Virus record (IMG/VR): IMGVR_UViG_3300042520_001145
Coordinates: 1 to 44,173 of that record
Source of the DNA: a virus
Direction: 5' to 3' (one strand)
Length of the DNA stretch: 44,173 nt
Shown here: in pieces, positions 1 through 23,953 of the stretch
Numbering within the stretch: position 1 is the stretch's first letter
Layout of the letters: each line of letters opens with the position of its first letter
Notes under the pieces: generated by a model
Told to the model about the DNA's origin: nothing
The model's input: the letters and a program-made list of their open reading frames with translations, nothing else
Databases searched by the model: none
Translations under genes and position numbers: made by a program

Positions 1-3000
1 GGAAAGTAGTCGCGCTGGAAGCCGATCTTAGTCTTCGATGGGCTGACGTATTCTGAGTAGAAGTCCTCAAGGAACTGGCGGATGGCCAGCGCCTTACCGG
101 TCAACTGTGCGGTCGGCGTGTCTGACGTTGCCTTATCGAACTCTGCGTCCAGAGCCGGATCATCAAATGACCCTAACTCCGTATCAAGTCGGTTCTTATA
201 CAAGTCAAACGTACGCGCCGACTGCGGTACAAAACCAAGACGGCCTTTGCCGGTCGGATCTTGGGCCCGTACGTAAAACATATCCGCTATTTCGTTACCG
301 GCGTACATACGCAGGATGCCATCGGCCGTCGATACAAGCCGAAGGATAGGTTTAACGTATGGGCTCTTCTTAAGCTGCGAGATCTTCGACTGCCAGTGCG
401 CCGCTCGGGCTGCGCCGCCGTTGGCAATATTAAGGTCGTTAAGCTCGTATACGAATGCTCGCTCAGTAAAGGATAAGCCGTTTTCCTTTACTTGTGACTT
501 TCTGGACTCAAGGACAGCGTCCATGAACGTCTCGAAGTCTTCGTTGACGGCTCCAAGTCGTCCGCCAAACCGTTTACGGAAAGACTCCGATGTCTGCTTC
601 CAGAGCGACTCAAGGCGAGCCGCAAAGTCCTTGAAGAACTTCTTAACGAGACTATCAGCCTTCTGACGGCTTCTGTACCGCTTGTTAGCCCACAAAGCCA
701 CCTGGTCAGAGAACCACTCTTCAAAGCCGAGATCAAACCCGTACTTGTCCTTTAGGTCTTTGAACGATGGGGATGACTGATAGGCTCTAAACAGCCGCTT
801 ACGAATAGCGGAGTTCTCAAGCGCTTTATTCCGCTCCTCTTTGTAGAGGCTGTGGCCAATTTCGTGCGCAATAACAAGAGCGTCTTGCAGTACGTTGCCG
901 GACTCTCGAAGGATAATTATCTTTCCAAACTGTCCAGAAATATGCATGCCCATCTTTGTGGAGCTATTCTGCATGCTAGCGATTGCTTCGCGTACTGGAT
1001 TCAACGCGCCGCCAAACAGCTGCAATAGCTGGTCATCCGACATAGCTATGAGTTCAGCGAACGTAAAAATATGCGGCGGGTCGGCAAACTTGAGCGAGTC
1101 AAACAGGTCGCGAACAATATCGCCGACCATGCTGTTGATGGCGTTAGAGATACGCTCTTGCGCCGAGCGTCTTTCGGCCAACGGGCTTACAGTAGTAGGA
1201 GCACGACCAGCGCGCAGATCAATAGCTGAGCGCGGCGTGTCGATGTTCATCGGCGTTAGGAGCTCACCGCCCGTAACGCTCGACTCGATCATACGTTCTG
1301 TTTCGGTACGGCCGTCTGAAACATCATCTCTTGGCGGGCCGAGCGGTTCAGCAGCAAGCGCAGCTTGGCGCTCTTCTGCCGTCATCACCGACTCTTGGAC
1401 GGGGTTCAGAAGATCGTTCAAAGATCGCTGACGGCCGCCAATAACTGCCGCAGTTACGTTGCCTAATCGAGCAGGGATACGGCCAGCAGCAGCCTGATTA
1501 CGGTCAGGCGTCAGCTGGAAGCCAGGGAAAAGCGACTGCCCATCGATCTGTACATCGTACCCTTCAACAGCCAAATCGCCCAAGACTTCAAGCAAACCAG
1601 CCCTGGCGGCTGCTTCTGGAGATACGTATGTAGCGCCGGTACGTGGGTCTTGGCGCAACTGAAACCCAGATCCTTCACGGCCTTCTAGTAAGCGCTGCCC
1701 AGCCGCAGTAAGGTCAACAAGGTTTACGGCTGACTTTTTTCCGTCTGGGCCAACAATAGTAACGCGAGAGTTCTGAGCGTACTTGCTTCGGCGTGCTCTC
1801 TGTATGGCAGAACGTAAAAACTCAGGGAGATTTAGACGTACTTCGTTGCCAGCCGTATCAATTGAGCGGAACAGATCGCCAAAATCATCGCGAACGATTT
1901 GATACCCACCATCTGGCGTGTCTTCAATAGATACCGCTGAGTCTGGGTTACTGCGCTGCTCATTTACAGCAGCGTTAAGCATCGCTTCGGTCATAGACGC
2001 GAAACGCGGGTCAGCCCAGTTAGTCTCACCGAACACCGTGTCGTAAGAGGCACGGGCGGACTGTGTGTTATCAAACACTCGGTTCGGGTCAGTCTTACGA
2101 CCATACGCTCGAACAACTGTGCGTTGCCCCTCTACGGCTTGCACGCCTTGGCCGAACATCTCTACCTGGTCAGCGTCTGTCTCGTCGGTCTGTTCGTCAG
2201 ACAAGTCAATGTCACGAACCTCGACTCGCTGCTCTGACTCAAAGCGGCGCTTACGATCTTCGAGCGCCTTTTCTACAGTAGTCTGTTGGATGCTGCCACC
2301 TTCGGGCATCAGATTACGAGCGGCTTCGAAAGCAGCACTTACCCCCTCTGGCGACGTGACTTCTTCAGAGATGACCCGACCGTTACGGTCGAGTGCCTGA
2401 ACAACAATGTCACCGGGAGCGGAATAATCTTTTACGGCGCTATAACCAAGGGCGATCTGCAAGGCCTTATCTGATGCACCGGCTGCAATAACTTCGCGCA
2501 CTACGTCTTCGTCAGTAGAGACGATTGTGCCTCGGCCTGGGACAAATGCTGAATATGCCAGTGTTCCATTAATGCTAGCCGTCTTAACCCGGTTTTGCGG
2601 AGCGTTAAATTTTGGAGCGGCACCAGCAATCCACACGGCTTTTTTGCCGCTAGACGGATCAACCATCGCACGGAGCTGAGCGTCGATGTCGCCTTCAGAC
2701 TCGGGAGTTGTTAAGCCAGCCGCCACATCGCCGAACTGCTCGTTGTTGATCTGCTGATCAACGCGCTGCCCGCGAGCTGTTTCTAGGAAGCCTTTAGCCT
2801 TTTCTACAATGTTGCCTACATTAGTAAGCACTCCTTGGCCAGGCTTCATAGACGACACAGCGTCTAGCGTTCCGCCTATAGCGCCACCAGCACCGCCAGG
2901 AGCAGCACCGCCAAAGAAACCAGCAAACGCAGCTTCTGCGAGACGCATCTTGGCGTCTTCTGCAGTAAATAGCGGGTCTAGGTCAGCGCGGTTTAGGACG

Positions 3001-3923
3001 CTAATGCCTTCTTGAGCTACTTCAGTGGTGGCTTCGATAGCACCGCCTTGGAGCGCACCGGTGCCTAACCGCTTCGCAAAGTTTGCAAATACGCCGCCTT
3101 CAACAGCGGCACGCTTAGTGGCTTGCTCGCCGATCAGCTTAAGTAATGCGTACTCACTACCGACGCCGATTGCTGCTTGCGGAATGCCGATAGCAGCGGC
3201 CCGTAGCGCGTTGGCCTGGTCAAGTGGCTGTCCGGCTTCGAGAGCCTCGGACAAATTGCTACCCGACATAGGCGCATATTCGGCAGCGAATGCACCACCT
3301 ATAGCGCCACGCTTAGCGGCCGTGCGGAGAGAACCATAAGCCAGCTCTGCAATTTGTTGTTCGACAGGATCAGCAACGCCGTTGGCAGTACGCTCAACGG
3401 AGTCTTTTATGATTCGCTTGGCAACCTGCTTGTTGACCTGATTAAGTACGCCACGGCCGACGGCGGCTGTAATAGCACCGGTACCGGCACCCGCTATAGA
3501 TAGCGCGGCTGATGGCAGAACCTGGCCAAAACTTTTGGTTGCCTGTTCAATAAACCCGCCGAATGTAGGCTGGTCTAAGAACTGTTCAAACGTATCGAGA
3601 CCTTGTACTGGCGCTGCAGCAAACTCCTCACGGAGTCGAGCCTCTTGGATATTTAAAGCAGCGGCTTGTTCGTCCCCCATAAGGGTGTTGCCAAGCGCTT
3701 TAAAGTATTCAAGATCTGCTGTTAGTCCTTGAACACCGGACTCAATACCGGCGCTAAATACTTCTTGCAAGTTGCCAGGCGCAGTTGGTAGCTGCGGAGC
3801 GTTCTCCCCAGCAGCAAATCTTTGGAACTGCGCATCTTCCTCTGGAGTAGATGAGTACACGTCCCGTAAAAAAGACGTGAACTGATCCTCTTGCTCCGGA
3901 AGGACTAGTGTTCTTTCGGCCAT
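1..3923 (-). CDS. Giant virion protein with zincin motif (partial, C-terminus off left edge)
   Basis: One uninterrupted minus-strand frame runs from an ATG at 3923 to the left edge, giving 1307 residues without a stop. The N-terminal third has Ala/Gly-rich amphipathic stretches (around residues 110-400), as in injected internal virion proteins. A zinc-protease motif HEIGH lies at residues 1020-1024, preceded by a hydrophobic strand, as in zincins. The gene follows two or three internal-virion-like genes in the same direction, the position of T7 gp16 or of large polyvalent proteins that phages inject. I infer a role in DNA delivery or in cleaving a host protein or peptidoglycan on entry. No RNA polymerase motif was seen in the visible part. 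The last two bases continue in frame with the right edge (see findings). The coding call is firm; the function is inferred. Confidence 0.85.
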   Translation of the reverse strand, partial: MAERTLVLPEQEDQFTSFLRDVYSSTPEEDAQFQRFAAGENAPQLPTAPGNLQEVFSAGIESGVQGLTADLEYFKALGNTLMGDEQAAALNIQEARLREEFAAAPVQGLDTFEQFLDQPTFGGFIEQATKSFGQVLPSAALSIAGAGTGAITAAVGRGVLNQVNKQVAKRIIKDSVERTANGVADPVEQQIAELAYGSLRTAAKRGAIGGAFAAEYAPMSGSNLSEALEAGQPLDQANALRAAAIGIPQAAIGVGSEYALLKLIGEQATKRAAVEGGVFANFAKRLGTGALQGGAIEATTEVAQEGISVLNRADLDPLFTAEDAKMRLAEAAFAGFFGGAAPGGAGGAIGGTLDAVSSMKPGQGVLTNVGNIVEKAKGFLETARGQRVDQQINNEQFGDVAAGLTTPESEGDIDAQLRAMVDPSSGKKAVWIAGAAPKFNAPQNRVKTASINGTLAYSAFVPGRGTIVSTDEDVVREVIAAGASDKALQIALGYSAVKDYSAPGDIVVQALDRNGRVISEEVTSPEGVSAAFEAARNLMPEGGSIQQTTVEKALEDRKRRFESEQRVEVRDIDLSDEQTDETDADQVEMFGQGVQAVEGQRTVVRAYGRKTDPNRVFDNTQSARASYDTVFGETNWADPRFASMTEAMLNAAVNEQRSNPDSAVSIEDTPDGGYQIVRDDFGDLFRSIDTAGNEVRLNLPEFLRSAIQRARRSKYAQNSRVTIVGPDGKKSAVNLVDLTAAGQRLLEGREGSGFQLRQDPRTGATYVSPEAAARAGLLEVLGDLAVEGYDVQIDGQSLFPGFQLTPDRNQAAAGRIPARLGNVTAAVIGGRQRSLNDLLNPVQESVMTAEERQAALAAEPLGPPRDDVSDGRTETERMIESSVTGGELLTPMNIDTPRSAIDLRAGRAPTTVSPLAERRSAQERISNAINSMVGDIVRDLFDSLKFADPPHIFTFAELIAMSDDQLLQLFGGALNPVREAIASMQNSSTKMGMHISGQFGKIIILRESGNVLQDALVIAHEIGHSLYKEERNKALENSAIRKRLFRAYQSSPSFKDLKDKYGFDLGFEEWFSDQVALWANKRYRSRQKADSLVKKFFKDFAARLESLWKQTSESFRKRFGGRLGAVNEDFETFMDAVLESRKSQVKENGLSFTERAFVYELNDLNIANGGAARAAHWQSKISQLKKSPYVKPILRLVSTADGILRMYAGNEIADMFYVRAQDPTGKGRLGFVPQSARTFDLYKNRLDTELGSFDDPALDAEFDKATSDTPTAQLTGKALAIRQFLEDFYSEYVSPSKTKIGFQRDYF

Positions 3924-17935: not shown

Positions 17936-18406
17936 CTAATCACAAGAGTACTGGTAAATTGTCTTCACCCACCAGTACAGCATGTCGTTGCTTAAGCTCT
18001 GTTTTAAGAGATTAACCCGTAGAGCAACGAGCTGCACGTTTCCCGGTATATACCCTTGCTGGCTGTCTATTCGGTCGATGCTTGCGTTAAAGTCCTTGGC
18101 TCCCGACCCGTCGTTATGGTGAGTGAGCACTACTCCTGATATCGCACAACGGCCTTCTTGCCGTTGCCAGAGATCAATGAGGTACTCGGCGGTTACCTCG
18201 TAGTCCGTGAACCCACGACTACGGCTCTTACTTTTGCTCGTAGATACGAGATTCGTTAAGTACGGTTCGTAGCCCGTGGACCGTTGTTGACGGCGCGTGG
18301 CTTGATTACAGGGGCGGCATATTGTCCTGAAGCCGCCTTTCATAGCCTCGAAACTCGCTATGGGCAGGTCCGTCTGGCAGCGAGCGCATGTCTTAGTGTC
18401 TGACAC
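17936..18406 (-). CDS. HNH endonuclease
   Basis: 156 residues from a GTG at 18406 with a GGGTAGG site upstream. Two CxxC pairs (CARC near residue 7, CRPC near 31) form an N-terminal zinc ribbon. The HNH core follows: CAISGVVLTHH, then NASIDRIDSQQGYIPGNVQLV with the central Asp-Arg-Ile-Asp and Asn. It is the first gene of the leftward packaging operon. Phage HNH proteins next to terminases can assist genome cleavage during packaging, but a free-standing homing-type nuclease is also possible. Confidence 0.85.
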   Translation of the reverse strand: MSDTKTCARCQTDLPIASFEAMKGGFRTICRPCNQATRRQQRSTGYEPYLTNLVSTSKSKSRSRGFTDYEVTAEYLIDLWQRQEGRCAISGVVLTHHNDGSGAKDFNASIDRIDSQQGYIPGNVQLVALRVNLLKQSLSNDMLYWWVKTIYQYSCD

Positions 18407-18481
18407 TAGTACAACCTACCCGGAAAATCGACCGTCGATCTCCTGCGCCGGGTGAAGTTGCCGGAGTATACCCTTGATTCC

Positions 18482-18526
18482 GCAAAAAATTTCTATAGAA
18501 AAATTTTGCAGAAAAAATTTCTATAG
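18482..18526. promoter_or_regulatory. CTATAG-centred near-palindrome plus direct repeat, candidate operator
   Basis: AAAAAATTTCTATAG occurs at 18484-18498 and again at 18512-18526, 28 bases apart. The first copy is the left half of a 28-base near-palindrome (18482-18509), GCAAAA..TTTCTATAGAAA..TTTTGC, with 24 of 28 positions symmetric. The second copy continues into GGAGGGGG. This is the layout of a dimer-binding operator set, or of two promoter cores, in a divergent control region. Confidence 0.6.
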
Positions 18527-18615
18527 GAGGGGGTATGCGTTTTTCTATCTATTTTGCTCACTCATAGTCTCCCCCCTCGCCTCCAGCACCAACCCCTTTC
18601 CCGGAATTTAGCCAT

Positions 18616-18652
18616 TGGAACCTTGTTTTTAACCAGAATCGTGGAACCTTGT
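18616..18652 (+). repeat. 11-base direct repeat TGGAACCTTGT
   Basis: Two identical copies at 18616-18626 and 18642-18652, 26 bases apart start to start, lie about 100 bases before the first early gene. They could be binding sites for an early regulator. No third copy was noticed. Confidence 0.5.
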
Positions 18653-18674
18653 CGCCCAGTAACCCCCCAGCGTC

Positions 18675-18702
18675 AACGCTCGACACTTCGTGTCTCGCGG
18701 TC
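18675..18702 (+). promoter_or_regulatory. Covarying 28-nt hairpin element, copy A
   Basis: AACGCTC, then the stem GACAC / loop TTC / stem GTGTC, then TCGCGGTC. It ends 43 bases before the ATG at 18746. The flanks and loop are identical in copies B and C while the stems differ completely but still pair perfectly. See findings for interpretations. Confidence 0.75.
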
Positions 18703-18745
18703 AGTGACTATTGTGTATCTGTCAATTAACTAGGAGTAATTACTC

Positions 18746-18919
18746 ATGGACAACCAAGCCAATACAACCAACAACATCAACGACAACGAACAACCGGACC
18801 AGATGTATCTCGCTGCTGAGAAAGCAAAAGAAGCATCCAAGTCTGTCATCACCTACGCTAAAGAGAAGCCTGACATGGCAGCTCTATTCGTCCTAGGCGT
18901 ACTCAACCTCTTCAGCTAA
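18746..18919 (+). CDS. Small early protein with C-terminal hydrophobic segment
   Basis: 57 residues (MDNQANTTNNIND...AALFVLGVLNLFS). A good TAGGAG site precedes the ATG. The N-terminus is polar and Asn-rich, followed by a helix (YLAAEKAKEASKSVITYAKEKP) and a short hydrophobic C-terminal stretch. The layout recalls ElaB/YgaM (DUF883-like) membrane-anchored proteins, but that is only a resemblance. It is the first gene of the rightward region and is preceded by hairpin copy A. Confidence 0.7.
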   Translation: MDNQANTTNNINDNEQPDQMYLAAEKAKEASKSVITYAKEKPDMAALFVLGVLNLFS

Positions 18920-18972
18920 TCCAATCGGGAGGGACCTCCAACCTCCCATCACTAACCACAAGGAACTATCCA

Positions 18973-19134
18973 ATGACCCTCACCAGCGGCAAGACATCAC
19001 TGGCCTTCAGCATCCTCGCAAACATCACCTTCCTCGGCTCGTTCTTCACTGAGCCCCCGGTTAGCCACTCACTCATCATCGCTACCGGATTAGCCGTTAT
19101 CGGCACCCTCGTATCACTGCTCTCCAACGACTAA
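18973..19134 (+). CDS. Small two-span membrane protein
   Basis: 53 residues with two hydrophobic segments (about residues 9-23 and 31-48) separated by a short polar turn with FTEPPVSHS. The ATG has an AAGGA site. Size and topology would fit a small holin-like or superinfection-exclusion protein, but its place among the first early genes argues against lysis. A hairpin terminator follows at once. Confidence 0.65.
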   Translation: MTLTSGKTSLAFSILANITFLGSFFTEPPVSHSLIIATGLAVIGTLVSLLSND

Positions 19135-19144
19135 CAACTATCCA

Positions 19145-19172
19145 CTGACCACGGTCAACATACCGTGGTCAG
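19145..19172 (+). terminator. Hairpin terminator after first early genes
   Basis: CTGACCACGGT and its perfect complement ACCGTGGTCAG form an 11-bp stem with a CAACAT loop, starting 10 bases after a stop codon. The T-rich tail (TTGTTGTTTG) is weak but present. The same GACCAC/GTGGTC words recur downstream, so it could double as an operator. Confidence 0.6.
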
Positions 19173-19260
19173 TTGTTGTTTGCACGCAACACATGTCATG
19201 TGCCAGTGGACAACGGTCGTGTGCTCATGGCCAGTTGCCCGTGATCCGCTCACACAGGCA

Positions 19261-19397
19261 TGTGTGCAGTGTGTGCAGCGATTACGGTTTGTGTGCAGGC
19301 ATGTGTGCAGGCAAGTTTGTTGCAGACAAACGCATGCAAGTGCCTGATTTACAAACACTTTAACCCTGCGATAACGAAATGTGTGCAGTGTGTGCAG
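19261..19397 (+). repeat. Iteron-like array, six direct copies of TGTGTGCAG
   Basis: Exact copies at 19261, 19270, 19290, 19302, 19380 and 19389 (start positions). Two pairs are directly abutted (9-base spacing). A 9-mer repeated exactly six times on one strand in 137 bases cannot be chance. Together with the inverted array downstream and the DnaA box it resembles an iteron-type replication origin. Confidence 0.85.
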
Positions 19398-19437
19398 GGT
19401 TTTTACCATTTTTAAAACGGGGTGCAATTTGAAAAAT

Positions 19438-19449
19438 ACAACATGTTGT
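19438..19449. repeat. 12-base palindrome at centre of iteron arrays
   Basis: ACAACATGTTGT is a perfect dyad. It lies in an A/T-rich stretch (about 19398-19473) near the midpoint between the direct and inverted 9-mer arrays. This is the natural place for initial unwinding or for binding of a symmetric initiator complex. Confidence 0.55.
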
Positions 19450-19473
19450 TTTTCTTGCGAACTGAAAAAATGC

Positions 19474-19587
19474 CTGCACACAGTGAACACACATTGATTT
19501 ATAAGGAAAAATGCCTGCACACACACCCTCGTTTGCTGCACACATTGCCCTGTTTGCTGCACACATTTAGACCCTTAGCTGCACACA
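19474..19587 (-). repeat. Iteron-like array, five inverted copies (CTGCACACA)
   Basis: Exact copies of CTGCACACA, the reverse complement of the upstream iteron, start at 19474, 19515, 19536, 19557 and 19579. The last four are 21-22 bases apart, two helical turns, so bound proteins would sit on one face of the DNA. Copies two to four lie within partly conserved 21-base units. Confidence 0.85.
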
Positions 19588-19590
19588 GTC

Positions 19591-19599
19591 TGTGGATAA
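19591..19599 (-). promoter_or_regulatory. DnaA box (TTATCCACA on minus strand)
   Basis: TGTGGATAA on the plus strand is an exact match to the high-affinity E. coli DnaA box TTATCCACA. It lies three bases after the last iteron copy. It suggests host DnaA helps open or mark the origin. Confidence 0.7.
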
Positions 19600-19607
19600 C
19601 TCAAACT

Positions 19608-19654
19608 AGTGGTTAAAACTGACCACTAACCACTGTTCACTTATACAGGACAAC
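19608..19654 (+). promoter_or_regulatory. Early promoter with overlapping inverted repeat
   Basis: CTGACC (19619-19624) and TATACA (19642-19647) are 17 bases apart, a plausible sigma70 promoter with a start near 19654. An 8-bp inverted repeat AGTGGTTA (19608-19615) / TAACCACT (19627-19634) straddles the -35, so a repressor dimer there would block it. The predicted start falls at the first bases of hairpin copy B. Confidence 0.5.
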
Positions 19655-19679
19655 GCTCATCGGTTCCCGATTCGCGGTC
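19652..19679 (+). promoter_or_regulatory. Covarying 28-nt hairpin element, copy B
   Basis: AACGCTC, stem ATCGG / loop TTC / stem CCGAT, then TCGCGGTC. It ends 45 bases before the ATG at 19725. The hairpin is further bracketed by AGGACA and TGTCCT. It would lie at the very 5' end of the transcript from the promoter just upstream. Confidence 0.75.
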
Positions 19680-19724
19680 AGATGTCCTATTGATTCACTT
19701 ATGTAACAACCAGAGGTATCAACC

Positions 19725-20054
19725 ATGTCCGAGCCACAGCAAATTGATCTATTCGACCCAATGGTCATTTACTGCGACGACGCTCCAGTCGTTAACCTCG
19801 ATCAGTTCTTCATGTTAGTAACTAAGGATTTTGCTAACACGTTCCCCCACGGCACGCTTGCCGTCAGCCCACCTATCCCACTGCGTTCAGGCGCAGGCTG
19901 GTATGTCGGACGTGCCGGGTTCAACTTCGACGAAGTAACTAACCGTTGGTGGTACGAGCCGTACGACCGTATTTCGGACTACTACCAAACAGAATCTGAG
20001 GCTGCTGACGTAGCCTCTTGGCACCGTTGGGGAGCAGGACACCCATCCATATGA
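19725..20054 (+). CDS. Hypothetical early protein, 109 residues
   Basis: An acidic, aromatic-rich protein (MSEPQQIDLFDPMVIYCDD at the start, GWYVGRAGFNFDEVTNRWWYEP in the middle). Not recognised. It is the first gene after the origin region, follows hairpin copy B, and shares ATGA with the next gene. Small early proteins in this position often modify host functions. Confidence 0.65.
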   Translation: MSEPQQIDLFDPMVIYCDDAPVVNLDQFFMLVTKDFANTFPHGTLAVSPPIPLRSGAGWYVGRAGFNFDEVTNRWWYEPYDRISDYYQTESEAADVASWHRWGAGHPSI

Positions 20055-20263
20055 ACGACACACAGTGCTACGTACTGGCGGTTGACTCACTGCAACGGGC
20101 CTTGAGCTCGTTGCAGTCCTCCCCAGACCAAGACTCCAAGGCCATGTATGAAACCCTTCGCCTCACCAACGAAGCAGCCCATGCCATCTACTCCATGGCG
20201 CACATGCGCATGATGGCGGAGGAAAAGCTGCGCGAACTTGAGACTCCAACCGAGGAGTTCTGA
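20051..20263 (+). CDS. Hypothetical helical early protein, 70 residues
   Basis: The start is the ATG at 20051, overlapping the stop of the preceding gene (ATGA). The product is helical (MNDTQCYVLAVDSLQRALSS, then AHAIYSMAHMRMMAEEKLREL). An upstream reading frame from 20018 would overlap the neighbour and is unlikely. Its stop codon shares a base with hairpin copy C. No family recognised. Confidence 0.65.
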   Translation: MNDTQCYVLAVDSLQRALSSLQSSPDQDSKAMYETLRLTNEAAHAIYSMAHMRMMAEEKLRELETPTEEF

Positions 20264-20290
20264 ACGCTCGCGCGTTCCGCGCTCGCGGTC
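20263..20290 (+). promoter_or_regulatory. Covarying 28-nt hairpin element, copy C
   Basis: AACGCTC, stem GCGCG / loop TTC / stem CGCGC, then TCGCGGTC. The first base is the last base of the preceding stop codon. It ends 34 bases before the ATG at 20325. The stem differs from copies A and B at most positions but pairs perfectly. Confidence 0.75.
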
Positions 20291-20324
20291 GGTGCAACCA
20301 GTGATCCAACTAACAGGTACCAGT

Positions 20325-20492
20325 ATGAAACAGTTGCAATTACCACTAACAACTAACCACGCACAACGGATCACTCACAAACTACAACAAGCAATCCAAT
20401 ATGCTAAGGAGCACCCAGATGAAGTAATGCTCGCACTAATGACTATCCTGTTATTAGACATTGAAGATGACTTAGACGATGTCTCCAAGTAA
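20325..20492 (+). CDS. Small early protein with hydrophobic helix
   Basis: 55 residues from the ATG at 20325 (MKQLQLPLTTNHAQRITHKL). A hydrophobic helix with VMLALMTILLL is followed by an acidic tail DIEDDLDDVSK. It is the gene served by hairpin copy C. Possibly membrane-associated; not recognised. A weak ACAGG ribosome-binding site lies about eight bases upstream. Confidence 0.6.
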   Translation: MKQLQLPLTTNHAQRITHKLQQAIQYAKEHPDEVMLALMTILLLDIEDDLDDVSK

Positions 20493-20509
20493 CCAAAGGA
20501 TACTTAACC

Positions 20510-20713
20510 ATGGCTTCAAATCCGTATACGGTTCTAAATCTAAACACTGTCCACTGGGATTGGCTCGTTGATCACGAGAACCAGTTGGCTAACCACGAAT
20601 CATCAGACGTTGATATCGATACAGCGTTTGACGATGCAGACAATGCCAGCCAGTTGGCAAAGCTGCTTTCCGACTACAACTTAACAACCATAGGTAACTA
20701 CAATGACCGTTAA
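20510..20713 (+). CDS. Hypothetical acidic protein, 67 residues
   Basis: An AAAGGA site precedes the ATG at 20510. The product is acidic (DHENQLANHESSDVDIDTAFDD). It overlaps the next gene by 11 bases. No recognisable domain. Confidence 0.6.
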   Translation: MASNPYTVLNLNTVHWDWLVDHENQLANHESSDVDIDTAFDDADNASQLAKLLSDYNLTTIGNYNDR

Positions 20714-21347
20714 AGATCAGACTTTCATCCCCAACGTCATCGGCTACATGTCCGAGAAAAACACCACTATTGGCTCCATAGCCAAGTACGTGGAGTCTCA
20801 ACAAGCGGACGATCCGCTCGAGCGTATTGCTCTTGCATTCTTCCGTTTGCAGCGCGCTCGTCAGGCTGCAGTGACCGCCGAGCTTGAGCAGGGAGTCCCG
20901 GTTGAGGGACCGCCGTTCAAGCCGGAGCGTTTGCTCAGCTTCATTCAGTCCATCATGAACGGTGTCTGCTGGGCCGCTCGCCGCTTGTATGTGGCGAACG
21001 ACAAGCAGGAATTCGGCAACGGCATCGACTTCTCACAAGACGTCGGTGACTATGTCGGAGTCTACGCTACGAACGAGCGTATCCCCGAGCTGGTGGATAG
21101 CGACTTCATGGCGCTCACCCGCCTGCACACTTTGCTCGCCGCCAAGATGGCGTACCTCACCGACATCGCTCCGCTCTACCACTTCGAGCAGCGCGCCAAG
21201 GACGAGGACGGCAACTGGTACGTCGAGACGGTGTGTAACTCGTTCTCGCAGGCCATGCCGGTTATGGACGACATTGTCGCCCGTCTCCAGCAGGAATCCG
21301 AGGCTAACGAAGTTGCTGATTTTATGAAGCAGCTGCGCGCCGCGTAA
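20703..21347 (+). CDS. Hypothetical early protein, 214 residues
   Basis: A mostly helical soluble protein. Codon use is more G+C-rich than its small neighbours, which suggests stronger expression. Visible features are FFRLQRARQAAVTAELEQG, a MNGVCWAARRLYV helix and a C-terminal DFMKQLRAA. It overlaps the preceding gene and is followed by a structured intergenic element. I do not recognise the family. Confidence 0.7.
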   Translation: MTVKDQTFIPNVIGYMSEKNTTIGSIAKYVESQQADDPLERIALAFFRLQRARQAAVTAELEQGVPVEGPPFKPERLLSFIQSIMNGVCWAARRLYVANDKQEFGNGIDFSQDVGDYVGVYATNERIPELVDSDFMALTRLHTLLAAKMAYLTDIAPLYHFEQRAKDEDGNWYVETVCNSFSQAMPVMDDIVARLQQESEANEVADFMKQLRAA

Positions 21348-21358
21348 CCAAACCCTAG

Positions 21359-21440
21359 AGAAGGTTGGTCGTCACCCTTGACCAAAACGACCACGGTCCC
21401 TCCCCGTCGCTGATACCTCGGCGGGGAGGGATCAACTTCT
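21359..21440 (+). ncRNA. Three-helix structured leader before small gene
   Basis: Three helices can form together. P1 pairs AGAAG(g)TT (21359-21366) with AACTTCT (21434-21440). P2 pairs GGTCGT (21367-21372) with ACGACC (21387-21392). P3 pairs CCCTCCCCG (21398-21406) with CGGGGAGGG (21422-21430). The element ends just before the ribosome-binding site of the gene at 21464, so it may control it. There is no U tract, so it is not a simple terminator. Confidence 0.5.
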
Positions 21441-21463
21441 GGCCGCCAGGGAGACAGTGTGCC

Positions 21464-21649
21464 ATGACTAATGGCCTAAAAAACCTACTGACACAGTTAT
21501 CGACTGAACAAAAGTTAGCTTTAGAGATACACGAAATCATGCACGCTGTGCTTACCCATTCTAACACCAAGTTAAAGAATCAGAAGTTTTACAACTACTC
21601 AGTACAAGAGCTTTACGACTTTTTGCAACGTGCCGATACCAACGGCTAG
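21464..21649 (+). CDS. Hypothetical helical protein, 61 residues
   Basis: Starts at the ATG at 21464 with a GGGAG site upstream; the longer in-frame reading would consume the structured leader. The product MTNGLKNLLTQLSTEQKLALE... is helical with a C-terminal VQELYDFLQRADTNG. Not recognised. It is flanked by structured RNA candidates on both sides. Confidence 0.6.
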   Translation: MTNGLKNLLTQLSTEQKLALEIHEIMHAVLTHSNTKLKNQKFYNYSVQELYDFLQRADTNG

Positions 21650-21963
21650 TGTGACGCGCACGATGAGAAACGGGATGGTTTCCCGTAGCGTTCTCCCCGG
21701 TGAATTCCGGCGTTAGCAGCACGACAGTCCCCTGTGGTCGGGATGCGGATACCACATTGCGTTAAGTGTTTGTGGTGCGATGACAAAGACCGCCGCATAG
21801 GGGAAGCACTTCATATATAATTACCGAACCGGAAGTTTAGGGCCTGGCCAGCAGTAATGTATGGCCTCCACCGGATGCTTGGAGAAGGCTAACCCTCTAT
21901 CCAGCCCTGACTTCCACCTACCACCACAGCCCGTTTGGCCACCAGGTCAAGCGGGCTTTTTTA
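21650..21963 (+). ncRNA. Candidate structured non-coding RNA with terminator
   Basis: Over 300 bases without a gene between two small genes, ending in a strong terminator. Nested helices are evident. CCCCT (21729-21733) and AGGGG (21799-21803) close ATGCGG (21743-21748) / CCGCAT (21793-21798), which encloses ACCACA (21751-21756) / TGTGGT (21771-21776). A second TGTGGT (21733-21738) competes for ACCACA. The inner loop AAGTG (21764-21768) matches CACTT (21807-21811), allowing a pseudoknot. Not a tRNA as far as I can see. It could be a stable phage RNA or a leader that controls the next operon. Confidence 0.5.
21928..21963 (+). terminator. Rho-independent terminator
   Basis: A 10-bp stem AGCCCGTTTG (21928-21937) / CAAGCGGGCT (21948-21957), with one G-U pair, is followed by a run of T to 21963. 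A classic intrinsic terminator 28 bases before the next start codon. Confidence 0.85.
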
Positions 21964-21990
21964 TTCCCAACACAAAAGGACAACCAGACA

Positions 21991-22248
21991 ATGGCATCTC
22001 TCAACACAAAACAAATCATGAAGACTGCACTCGATGACCTCGTTGCGCAAGGCATCGACAGCGACAACTTGTTTGACTTCATCAGCACCGTAGCCGGAAC
22101 ACTCGGCTTTGTATTCGGTGCACTCCACGTATCTACCGAAAAGAAGATCCCGCTAGAAGAAATCGACCTACAGATCGACAGCATGTCTGAGTTCATTAAG
22201 TCATGTGCCCGACGCACGACTGAACTCACCCCGCCCAAAGCTAACTAA
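21991..22248 (+). CDS. Hypothetical protein, 85 residues
   Basis: MASLNTKQIMKTALDDLVAQG at the start, then a Gly/Phe-rich hydrophobic patch (VAGTLGFVFGALHV) and an amphipathic C-terminal helix. It follows the terminator at 21928, so it needs its own promoter or read-through. An AAAGGA site lies about 12 bases upstream. Not recognised. Confidence 0.65.
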   Translation: MASLNTKQIMKTALDDLVAQGIDSDNLFDFISTVAGTLGFVFGALHVSTEKKIPLEEIDLQIDSMSEFIKSCARRTTELTPPKAN

Positions 22249-22250
22249 TC

Positions 22251-22511
22251 ATGGATACCTGCAGCACCTGCAAATACTGGCGTCGGTGGAAACATAAAGT
22301 CACCGACCAAGCCACGTTCACATCTCGCATGGGCAACTGCAACATGGTGATGATGTGGTGGGACGCTAGTGAATGGCTCGAAGAAGAGCCGTTCACTCGA
22401 GAAATCAACCCGAAGTTTGCGCACAAACGAGCGTTCGTCCAGGACGCAAGCGACTACAGCGCATGTCTTTACACCCGTGAAGACTTTGGATGTATAGATC
22501 ACAAAAGGTAA
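22251..22511 (+). CDS. Cys-rich small protein, likely zinc-binding
   Basis: 86 residues. Cysteines occur as CSTC near the N-terminus (residues 4 and 7), GNC near residue 30, and two more at ACLY and GCID. The start MDTCSTCKYWRRW followed by a Trp/Met-rich loop resembles small phage zinc-knuckle proteins. Two bases separate it from the upstream gene. Function unknown. Confidence 0.65.
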   Translation: MDTCSTCKYWRRWKHKVTDQATFTSRMGNCNMVMMWWDASEWLEEEPFTREINPKFAHKRAFVQDASDYSACLYTREDFGCIDHKR

Positions 22512-22517
22512 AACCAT

Positions 22518-22745
22518 ATGCATTGGAACCACAGAATAGTAGTACAACACAACGAATACCTCGGAGGAGTAGAAACAACCTACCACTTTAAAGAGGTGTT
22601 CTACGAAGACGACGGTACTCCCACAAGCTACAGCGACCCGTTTATGTGCGGTGACAACCTGGAAGAACTCCAGTCTTTAGTTAACCGACTACAAACAGCA
22701 CTAAGCCACCCAGTATTAGACGACTCTATTTTCAAAGAGGACTAA
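22518..22745 (+). CDS. Small phage protein (MHWNHRIV family)
   Basis: 75 residues: an N-terminal beta hairpin (HRIVVQHNEYLGGVETTYHF), then KEVFYEDDGTP, and a helix ending in HPVLDD. This layout is common among uncharacterised phage early proteins. The next gene has the same plan (RFIV..., YDEQGK, helix, P-x-L), so the two are probably distant paralogues. Confidence 0.65.
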   Translation: MHWNHRIVVQHNEYLGGVETTYHFKEVFYEDDGTPTSYSDPFMCGDNLEELQSLVNRLQTALSHPVLDDSIFKED

Positions 22746-22749
22746 CCAT

Positions 22750-23007
22750 ATGAAACAAGAATACCGATTCATCGTATTTGAGTCCCAGTCCCCACTATAT
22801 GAAGAAGACCCCTTCATAGCATTGTGCGTAGTCACTTACGACGAACAGGGCAAACTGTTCAAGTTCAACTACCCAATGCACACGTTCGACAACATCGAAC
22901 AAGTAAACACATTTGTACTAGATATCATGCGTGCCGCCCAGCTTCCCATGCTGCATGTTAGTGACTTTCCAGTGTCAGCGTTCGACGACGAAGACATTGA
23001 GTTCTAA
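22750..23007 (+). CDS. Small phage protein, likely paralogue of preceding gene
   Basis: 85 residues with the same order of elements as the 22518 gene: an N-terminal strand with YRFIVFE, VVTYDEQGKLF, then a helix (DNIEQVNTFVLDIMRAA) and a final LPMLHVSDF. Four bases separate the genes. The tail is acidic. Function unknown. Confidence 0.6.
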   Translation: MKQEYRFIVFESQSPLYEEDPFIALCVVTYDEQGKLFKFNYPMHTFDNIEQVNTFVLDIMRAAQLPMLHVSDFPVSAFDDEDIEF

Positions 23008-23009
23008 CT

Positions 23010-23126
23010 ATGCTGAAAGCACTCCGCGCTTTTATTAAAAGGATCAACTCTATTAAAGACTATGACTGGCGTCATGTGCCGCCGCCCAACTGGGCATGCA
23101 AACGCAGCGGCCGTGACTACTGGTAA
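23010..23126 (+). CDS. Tiny basic protein, 38 residues
   Basis: MLKALRAFIKRINSIKDYDW, then a PPP turn and a short CKRSGRDYW end. It starts two bases after the previous stop and ends five bases before the next start, so it fits the operon. There is no strong ribosome-binding site of its own; coupling is likely. The amphipathic basic N-terminus could bind membrane or nucleic acid. Confidence 0.5.
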   Translation: MLKALRAFIKRINSIKDYDWRHVPPPNWACKRSGRDYW

Positions 23127-23131
23127 CTATC

Positions 23132-23479
23132 ATGAAAAAACCAAACGTAATACCACCAGGAAAAATACTAATCGACTACGACATGTACAACAGTGTGCTA
23201 CTCCTAGCAGAGTTCAACGGAGTGGAATACGTAAACTACGAAGTCATACAAGACTTTCCACTTTTACCTGCAAACAAACCACGAGTTACTAACAAACTAC
23301 GTAACTTTTTCCACAGTGACACTATTCTTTTCTCTAGAAAAAACTCCAACGTAGTGCATCAAGCACATGAGTACGTAAAAGCTAATAAACACAGATTCCC
23401 CGAATACACATCCGAAGAACACAAACAACACTGGGTAGGACTATGGCAAGTAAATATGCATGCCAATCGTGTGGCATAA
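23132..23479 (+). CDS. Hypothetical protein, 115 residues
   Basis: MKKPNVIPPGKILIDYDMYN at the start, then a beta-rich half and a basic helical C-terminus. Codons are A/T-rich compared with the replication genes. It overlaps the next gene by 37 bases. Not recognised. Confidence 0.6.
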   Translation: MKKPNVIPPGKILIDYDMYNSVLLLAEFNGVEYVNYEVIQDFPLLPANKPRVTNKLRNFFHSDTILFSRKNSNVVHQAHEYVKANKHRFPEYTSEEHKQHWVGLWQVNMHANRVA

Positions 23480-23628
23480 CTTTCGAAGAAGACGAAATAG
23501 TCCCTGTTCACGAAGGCAACAACGTGCACTACGTAGGCGACGGCAGATATCTTGAAGACGTCGAATACGACGGTTGCCCATACTGCCTAAGCATTAGCAT
23601 TGATCCAATAGAAACTGACGACGAATAA
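23443..23628 (+). CDS. Small zinc-ribbon protein
   Basis: 61 residues with CQSC (residues 7-10) and CPYC (residues 45-48): two CxxC knuckles separated by an acidic beta segment. This is a classic small zinc ribbon. It overlaps the preceding gene by 37 bases. Such proteins may bind nucleic acid or host proteins; the target is unknown. Confidence 0.7.
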   Translation: MASKYACQSCGITFEEDEIVPVHEGNNVHYVGDGRYLEDVEYDGCPYCLSISIDPIETDDE

Positions 23629-23641
23629 CGGAGCACTAACA

Positions 23642-23947
23642 ATGTTCTTTCTATCCGGCTTACTTGCAGCTCTAGCAATGATCTTTTTGCTACTTAAACT
23701 TAACCTACGACGTATCGCAAAGTACGACATCTTCCTGGACGTAGTACTTACGTTCTTCTTTATCTGGATCTTTGCCGGTACTTTCGCCGGTATGATGGCT
23801 GGCCTTTGGGCCGGTGCACTCATATCCATATTCTTGTGGTGGGCTAAACGTAGCCTGCCGCAAGAAGAACTCAAGTGGATCAAGACCAAGCGTTTTCCGT
23901 ATCGGAAGCTAGCTTGGGTAACGATCATTAAAACCAAAAACCGTTAA
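23642..23947 (+). CDS. Phage membrane protein, 101 residues
   Basis: Hydrophobic segments around residues 2-20, 31-47 and 48-66 are followed by a basic soluble tail (KTKRFPYRKLAWVTIIKTKNR). The start MFFLSGLLAALAMIFLLLKLN followed by a YD motif resembles a membrane protein family met in aquatic phages. It could be a holin-like or envelope-modifying early protein. It precedes the structured leader of the MoxR/VWA cassette. Confidence 0.7.
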   Translation: MFFLSGLLAALAMIFLLLKLNLRRIAKYDIFLDVVLTFFFIWIFAGTFAGMMAGLWAGALISIFLWWAKRSLPQEELKWIKTKRFPYRKLAWVTIIKTKNR

Positions 23948-23953
23948 CTAACA

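Follow-up and report, generated by a model that had tools for sequence, protein, structure and literature searches.

Transcription by the virion RNA polymerase (vRNAP) of phage N4 starts at hairpin promoters and requires gyrase supercoiling and SSB. In the genome of this member of the Schitoviridae (NC_008720), promoters P1, P2 and P3 read GTTGC-TTC-GCAAC-TTATGG, GAAGC-TCC-GCTTC-TTTTGG and GCTGC-TCC-GCAGC-TTTTGG, respectively. The polymerase contacts a purine at −11, G at −10, G at −8 and C at +1, and the GNA triloop contains a sheared G·A pair. The other described systems that come close are early-operon hairpins of lambda and HK022. The nut site of lambda is composed of boxA and a purine-rich pentaloop, the stem of boxB being 5 bp long. 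The put RNA of HK022, which consists of two stem-loops in ~70 nt, requires no dedicated protein for its action on RNA polymerase and counteracts pausing in a distance-dependent manner (PMC9378689).

Here we consider a hairpin element in a 44,173-nt stretch of viral DNA (hereafter, the window), a fragment of a podovirus-like phage that encodes a portal protein, which we take to be of the P22 type, TerL, a large internal virion protein, a PolA-type DNA polymerase, and a primase-helicase. The left end of the window cuts the gene of the ejection protein (1 to 3923, minus strand), a protein of ~1,850 to 1,920 or up to ~2,100 residues that carries a HEIGH metallopeptidase-like motif and has distant relatives of up to 3,117 residues (L475). 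The whole genome is jointly spanned by two ~56-kb relatives whose breakpoints differ in position. In the divergent region separating late and early genes, AAAAAATTTCTATAG occurs twice (18484 to 18526).

The hairpin module of the early genes

Three exact copies of AACGCTC-N5-TTC-N5′-TCGCGGTC lie on the plus strand at 18675 to 18702 (copy A), 19652 to 19679 (copy B), and 20263 to 20290 (copy C), against an expectation from shuffles of 0.01 hairpins of this type with up to 3 mismatches allowed; as originally predicted, the flanks are invariant and each upper stem has 5/5 Watson-Crick pairs. Hairpin A (CGC TC GACAC TTC GTGTC TC GCG, 18677 to 18699) has its loop at 18687 to 18689 and a TC/TC mismatch between 18680-18681 and 18695-18696; hairpins B (CGC TC ATCGG TTC CCGAT TC GCG) and C (CGC TC GCGCG TTC CGCGC TC GCG) occupy 19654 to 19676 and 20265 to 20287, all three being assigned by exact match and covariation. 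Column conservation among 18 nonredundant sites defines a constant part behind each hairpin, namely GTCAGT (18700 to 18705) and TG (18714-18715) behind A (18700 to 18715), GTCAGA and TG (19691-19692) behind B (19677 to 19692), and GTCGGT and TG (20302-20303) behind C (20288 to 20303). On the same strand, early ORFs of 57 aa (18746 to 18919, with the Shine-Dalgarno [SD] sequence TAGGAG), 109 aa (19725 to 20054), and 55 aa (20325 to 20492) follow copies A, B, and C, respectively. The prediction of early starts 34 to 46 bases downstream was right about the early ORFs and less so about the distances, which are 46 nt (A), 48 nt (B), and 37 nt (C) from the end of the hairpin to the ATG.

The N terminus of the 109-aa protein, MSEPQQIDLF, presumably resembles a sliding-clamp binding motif, and that of the 55-aa protein, MKQLQLPL, resembles what we take to be the QLxLPL clamp motif; orthologs of the latter retain QLxLP (MQQLDLPL, MKQLPLPI). 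It is plausible from these residues that both of these small early proteins target the host clamp. A 214-aa early protein encoded at 20703 to 21347 (plus strand) is conserved down to ~25% identity, and its confident, mostly helical fold model found no match in the PDB or in viral fold libraries.

A query with the ATPase recovered 69 loci, with identities from 100% down to 32%, and about 40 further element sites were found in related freshwater and marine podovirus contigs of IMG/VR; a DNA similarity search of cultured phages gave no result. In the complete relatives of ~56 kb, the element is confined to the head of the early operon, with no copies elsewhere. In 25 of 26 sites, a start codon with an SD sequence lies 37 to 84 nt 3′ of the hairpin, the sole exception being L201, where the automatic search found neither behind the hairpin. 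The relatives contribute new upper stems (ATCGC, GACGC, GCCCC, GCCCG, GTACC, and GTACT) as well as forms with four-pair upper and four-pair lower stems, and their loops are TTC, TCC, TAC, or GCC. The refined plus-strand consensus is C-N9-TNC-N9′-G, usually with the TC/TC mismatch, followed by GTCRGT and by TG at +15/+16. The arm always has ten rungs (5+2+3 or 4+2+4), all of them Watson-Crick in two of the forms. GTCRGT abuts the hairpin without a gap, and G5, T15, and G16 keep a fixed spacing (18 sites); among 18 sites of <65% identity, T15 and G16 are conserved (P of ~3e-6 each) and position 11 is random. At C sites, identity is 27% upstream of the hairpin, which is the random level, versus 63% in the 22 nt behind it, which places the start of the module at the hairpin.

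Each of the eight pairs varies on both sides while 99.3% of cells remain paired (17 sites), and the covariation score of these 17 sites was reached by 0 of 500 shuffles and lies far above slid controls too. The lower stem, predicted as CGC/GCG pairing across a UC/UC internal loop, is real and covaries across this loop in the relatives (CGC/GCG, CGT/ACG, CAC/GTG, and four-pair forms). Because some of the site searches demanded Watson-Crick stems, which partly weakens the argument from strict pairing, the scan was repeated on 2.9 million viral contigs with a stem-free pattern that fixed only the outer C/G, TC/TC, the loop, and GGTCRGT; since the pattern sets the outer pair, seven of the eight pairs were free. 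Real sites had 8/8 Watson-Crick pairs (42 site contexts) and no G·T pair, and chance matches had 1 to 6 pairs, none having 7. A wide-gap pattern returned mostly chance matches and served as background. As a negative control, the same flanks and loop occurring by chance in 12 bacterial genomes had 0 to 4 of 5 pairs, in contrast to the full pairing of all copies in related viral contigs. The initial proposal that the compensating stems reflect selection on a hairpin is thus strongly supported and extends to homologous sites in related phage contigs, which are 8/8 paired with differing stems: the element is a real, selected hairpin module of early genes.

Two homologous or similar sites, L203 172 to 197 and L251 6255 to 6279, keep the flanks and GGTC and have lost the hairpin. 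Palindromes of the ATTAG-N5-CTAAT type are found near the ribosome-binding site, behind the hairpin or in its place, in L217, L218, L248, L250, L399, and L415.

Comparison with N4 promoters and search for a polymerase

The element shares several measured features with N4 promoters, so that the parallel originally drawn with them stands as far as geometry is concerned and fails on the polymerase, on −8G, and on the unpaired spacer. Both have a 5-bp stem and, on the coding strand, a TTC or TCC loop that reads GNA on the template, and both occur in three copies before early genes at a similar distance from the ATG. A template-strand hairpin of the N4 description (5- to 7-bp stem, 3-nt loop) is present, the upper stem here being of 4 to 5 bp or, in two variants, of 10 bp. 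In both systems GG lies 11 nt past the loop center, which is +1 in N4; this putative start is found in the 5-bp and 4-bp forms and is absent in L250, L217, and one L215 copy. In N4, GG precedes the ATG by 47 nt at P1 and by 38 nt at P3; the corresponding distances at A and C in the window are likewise 47 and 38 nt, an agreement that is perhaps due to chance. Among the bases contacted by the N4 polymerase, −10G is invariant here (alignment A1) and a purine occupies −11 in nearly all sites, whereas −8G is not conserved, the stem base at this position varying freely. Furthermore, the −4 to −1 spacer is unpaired in N4, whereas the covarying lower stem with its TC/TC mismatch would pair −4 to +1 here, and the element adds the conserved GTCRGT and TG downstream, the TG at +15/+16 having no role in an N4-type promoter. 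The early/middle region of N4 contains an ATPase gene and a neighbor annotated as an HNH endonuclease, to which the PHROG 1297/1314 genes correspond here, a likeness that comes from annotation and gene order.

The claim that the window holds no N4-type polymerase was borne out, and complete relatives are likewise without an N4- or T7-type RNA polymerase. An HMM built from diverse vRNAPs, which recovered held-out positive controls with E values of 4e-81 and 3e-58, had no match in G001, G016, G003, the window, or KPP25, and the scanned ORFs had no match to a Pfam or PHROG RNA polymerase; the search with PF00940 was silent, as was its control, and so carries no information. The polymerase motif R-x3-K-x7-YG was found in the genomes only in the DNA polymerase, and the looser R-x3-K-x7-[YF]G also matches a glycine-rich N-terminal stretch of the ejection protein, which we take as chance. 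Profile comparison of the ejection protein with vRNAPs gave a probability of 0.2%, and the fold model of its middle 901 residues (pLDDT of 60) had no significant match, which is weak evidence. A hidden polymerase in the ~1,855-residue ejection protein is unsupported by motif, HMM, and profile comparison. The hairpin must have a reader other than the N4 enzyme; likelier candidates are host RNA polymerase assisted by a factor of host or phage origin, or an ejected protein that has escaped recognition.

DNA hairpin or RNA hairpin

The invariant bases of the coding strand are unremarkable pyrimidines; those of the template strand, 5′-GA...GNA...GA-3′, amount to a GNA triloop plus tandem G·A. Indeed, the T-N-C loop with its variable middle base (TTC, TCC, TAC) reads GNA on the template, and TC/TC reads GA/GA, the exceptions to the GNA loop being GCC in L217 and in one L250 copy. 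The template-strand fold is more stable than that of the coding strand with DNA and RNA parameter sets alike, and strict Watson-Crick pairing without G·T fits DNA better than RNA. From the GNA and tandem G·A logic, the stability of the template strand, and the absence of G·T, we infer that a DNA hairpin is favored.

A strong terminator-like hairpin with a 12-bp stem and a T-rich tail (19144 to 19173, plus strand) precedes copy B and separates it from the operon of copy A, and sigma-70-like sites are depleted in 18300 to 24100 (1 observed versus 5.8 expected). In view of these two features, B is likely to act as a promoter, and the same is likely of A and C given their similarity to it. The proposal that copy B forms the 5′ end of a transcript depends on a TATACA located a few bases 5′ of its AACGCTC, and this sequence is conserved in the closest relatives only; with no TATACA-like sequence 5′ of A and C sites, a TATACA start for all copies was rejected, being confined to the B subclade. 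A sigma-70 −10 hexamer (TANNNT) behind the hairpin was also discarded, A being present at position 11 in only 6 of 18 sites, as was an intrinsic terminator, a T run being absent behind A, B, and C.

The element is a cis-acting module for the expression of early genes, and we tentatively favor its reading as an early promoter in which a small DNA hairpin (cruciform) takes the place of a fixed base sequence in the upstream part. Negative supercoiling would extrude the hairpin. The template strand would be the stable form, owing to the GNA triloop and the tandem sheared G·A pairs formed by its invariant bases. A polymerase or factor would then recognize the extruded template-strand hairpin, and early transcription would begin just downstream of it, as with N4 vRNAP.

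The hairpin might instead act in nascent RNA, a reading that comes close behind the first: host RNA polymerase would transcribe it from an upstream promoter, and the hairpin or a bound protein would alter elongation in a put- or nut-like manner (antitermination or anti-pausing), the hairpin emerging about one polymerase RNA footprint behind an enzyme halted near the TG at +15/+16. GTCRGT and TG keep a constant distance from the hairpin, which resembles what we take to be the consensus of a pause signal, although a spacing of ~15 nt presumably exceeds that of hairpin-stabilized pauses. Such an element would need no phage polymerase, the same early operon contains, farther downstream, a strong terminator-like hairpin (21928 to 21957), and put RNA provides a precedent (PMC9378689). 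However, no conserved promoter is found upstream of A or C, copies A and B lie near the ATG despite long intergenic regions, G-U pairs are absent among many stems, and it is on the opposite strand that the loop and mismatch rules are structurally meaningful. Like put and nut, the element is an early-operon hairpin, but it is a single triloop hairpin, neither two stem-loops nor boxA plus a boxB with a GNRA-like pentaloop, and both put and nut lack the TNC triloop, the ten-rung arm, and GTCRGT. A boxA reading of CGCTC was rejected, CGC being variable and only N3-TC being kept.

We consider it unlikely that the hairpin serves, in the 5′ leader of each early mRNA, as the binding site of a host or phage protein that affects translation, processing, or stability. 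Nearly all copies do lie shortly 5′ of a ribosome-binding site and start codon, and copy C sits inside a run of genes, directly 3′ of the stop codon that ends the preceding ORF (ttcTGAACGCTC), but this leaves the rigid downstream spacing, far from the SD sequence, unexplained and fits poorly with the strict Watson-Crick pairing and the structural logic of the template strand. There is also no match to an Rfam 15 model, and the statement that no described family has this shape holds for Rfam and for the literature searched.

At 19260 to 19590, in a 500-nt noncoding gap, TGTGTGCAG repeats face CTGCACACA repeats in an iteron-like array that is possibly an origin or an operator, and similar GTGTGTAGCAG repeats are found near L251 6255. 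A replication signal, i.e., a single-stranded hairpin recognized by a primase or initiator near an origin, is very improbable, since all copies have one orientation and lie 37 to 84 nt before start codons in many genomes, even though copies A and B flank this array and the phage encodes a primase-helicase related to the primase of phage NrS-1.

KPP25, a cultured relative

Phages of the KPP25 group (Kochitakasuvirus) resemble the window phage in having a related terminase, DNA polymerase, and primase and no vRNAP. Triloop hairpins of ≥9 bp occur four times in the KPP25 genome, versus 0.1 expected from mononucleotide shuffles. Two of them look like terminators; the other two (NC_024123, 24021 and 24322) have a GGA loop and different 9-bp stems and lie ~42 and 39 nt 5′ of gp26 and gp27, the first two early genes. 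Perfect triloop hairpins with differing stems ~40 nt before the first early genes are thus common to KPP25 and the window, whereas the KPP25 hairpins differ in their 9-bp stem without a mismatch, in the GGA loop on the coding strand, and in the lack of GTCRGT. A search of KPP25 and phiA008 with the descriptor of the window element found no TC/TC form. Since the GNA loop of KPP25 sits on the coding strand, any homology with the window element is conjectural; the GGA hairpins are invariant among the four near-identical phages of the group.

With some reserve, we suggest that these elements could represent a second class of early promoters based on DNA hairpins, independent of that of N4, extruded by supercoiling and read by host RNA polymerase or an unrecognized ejected phage protein and not by an N4-type virion polymerase, which would extend across freshwater and marine podoviruses and have an analogous form in cultured KPP25-like phages. 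Hairpin promoters are a textbook rarity, associated with a single giant polymerase. An element with their loop, stem, and spacing that is widespread in phages devoid of this polymerase implies one of two things: hairpin DNA is read by some other enzyme, or an RNA element arrived at this shape by convergence. KPP25 is the cultured relative in which to begin.
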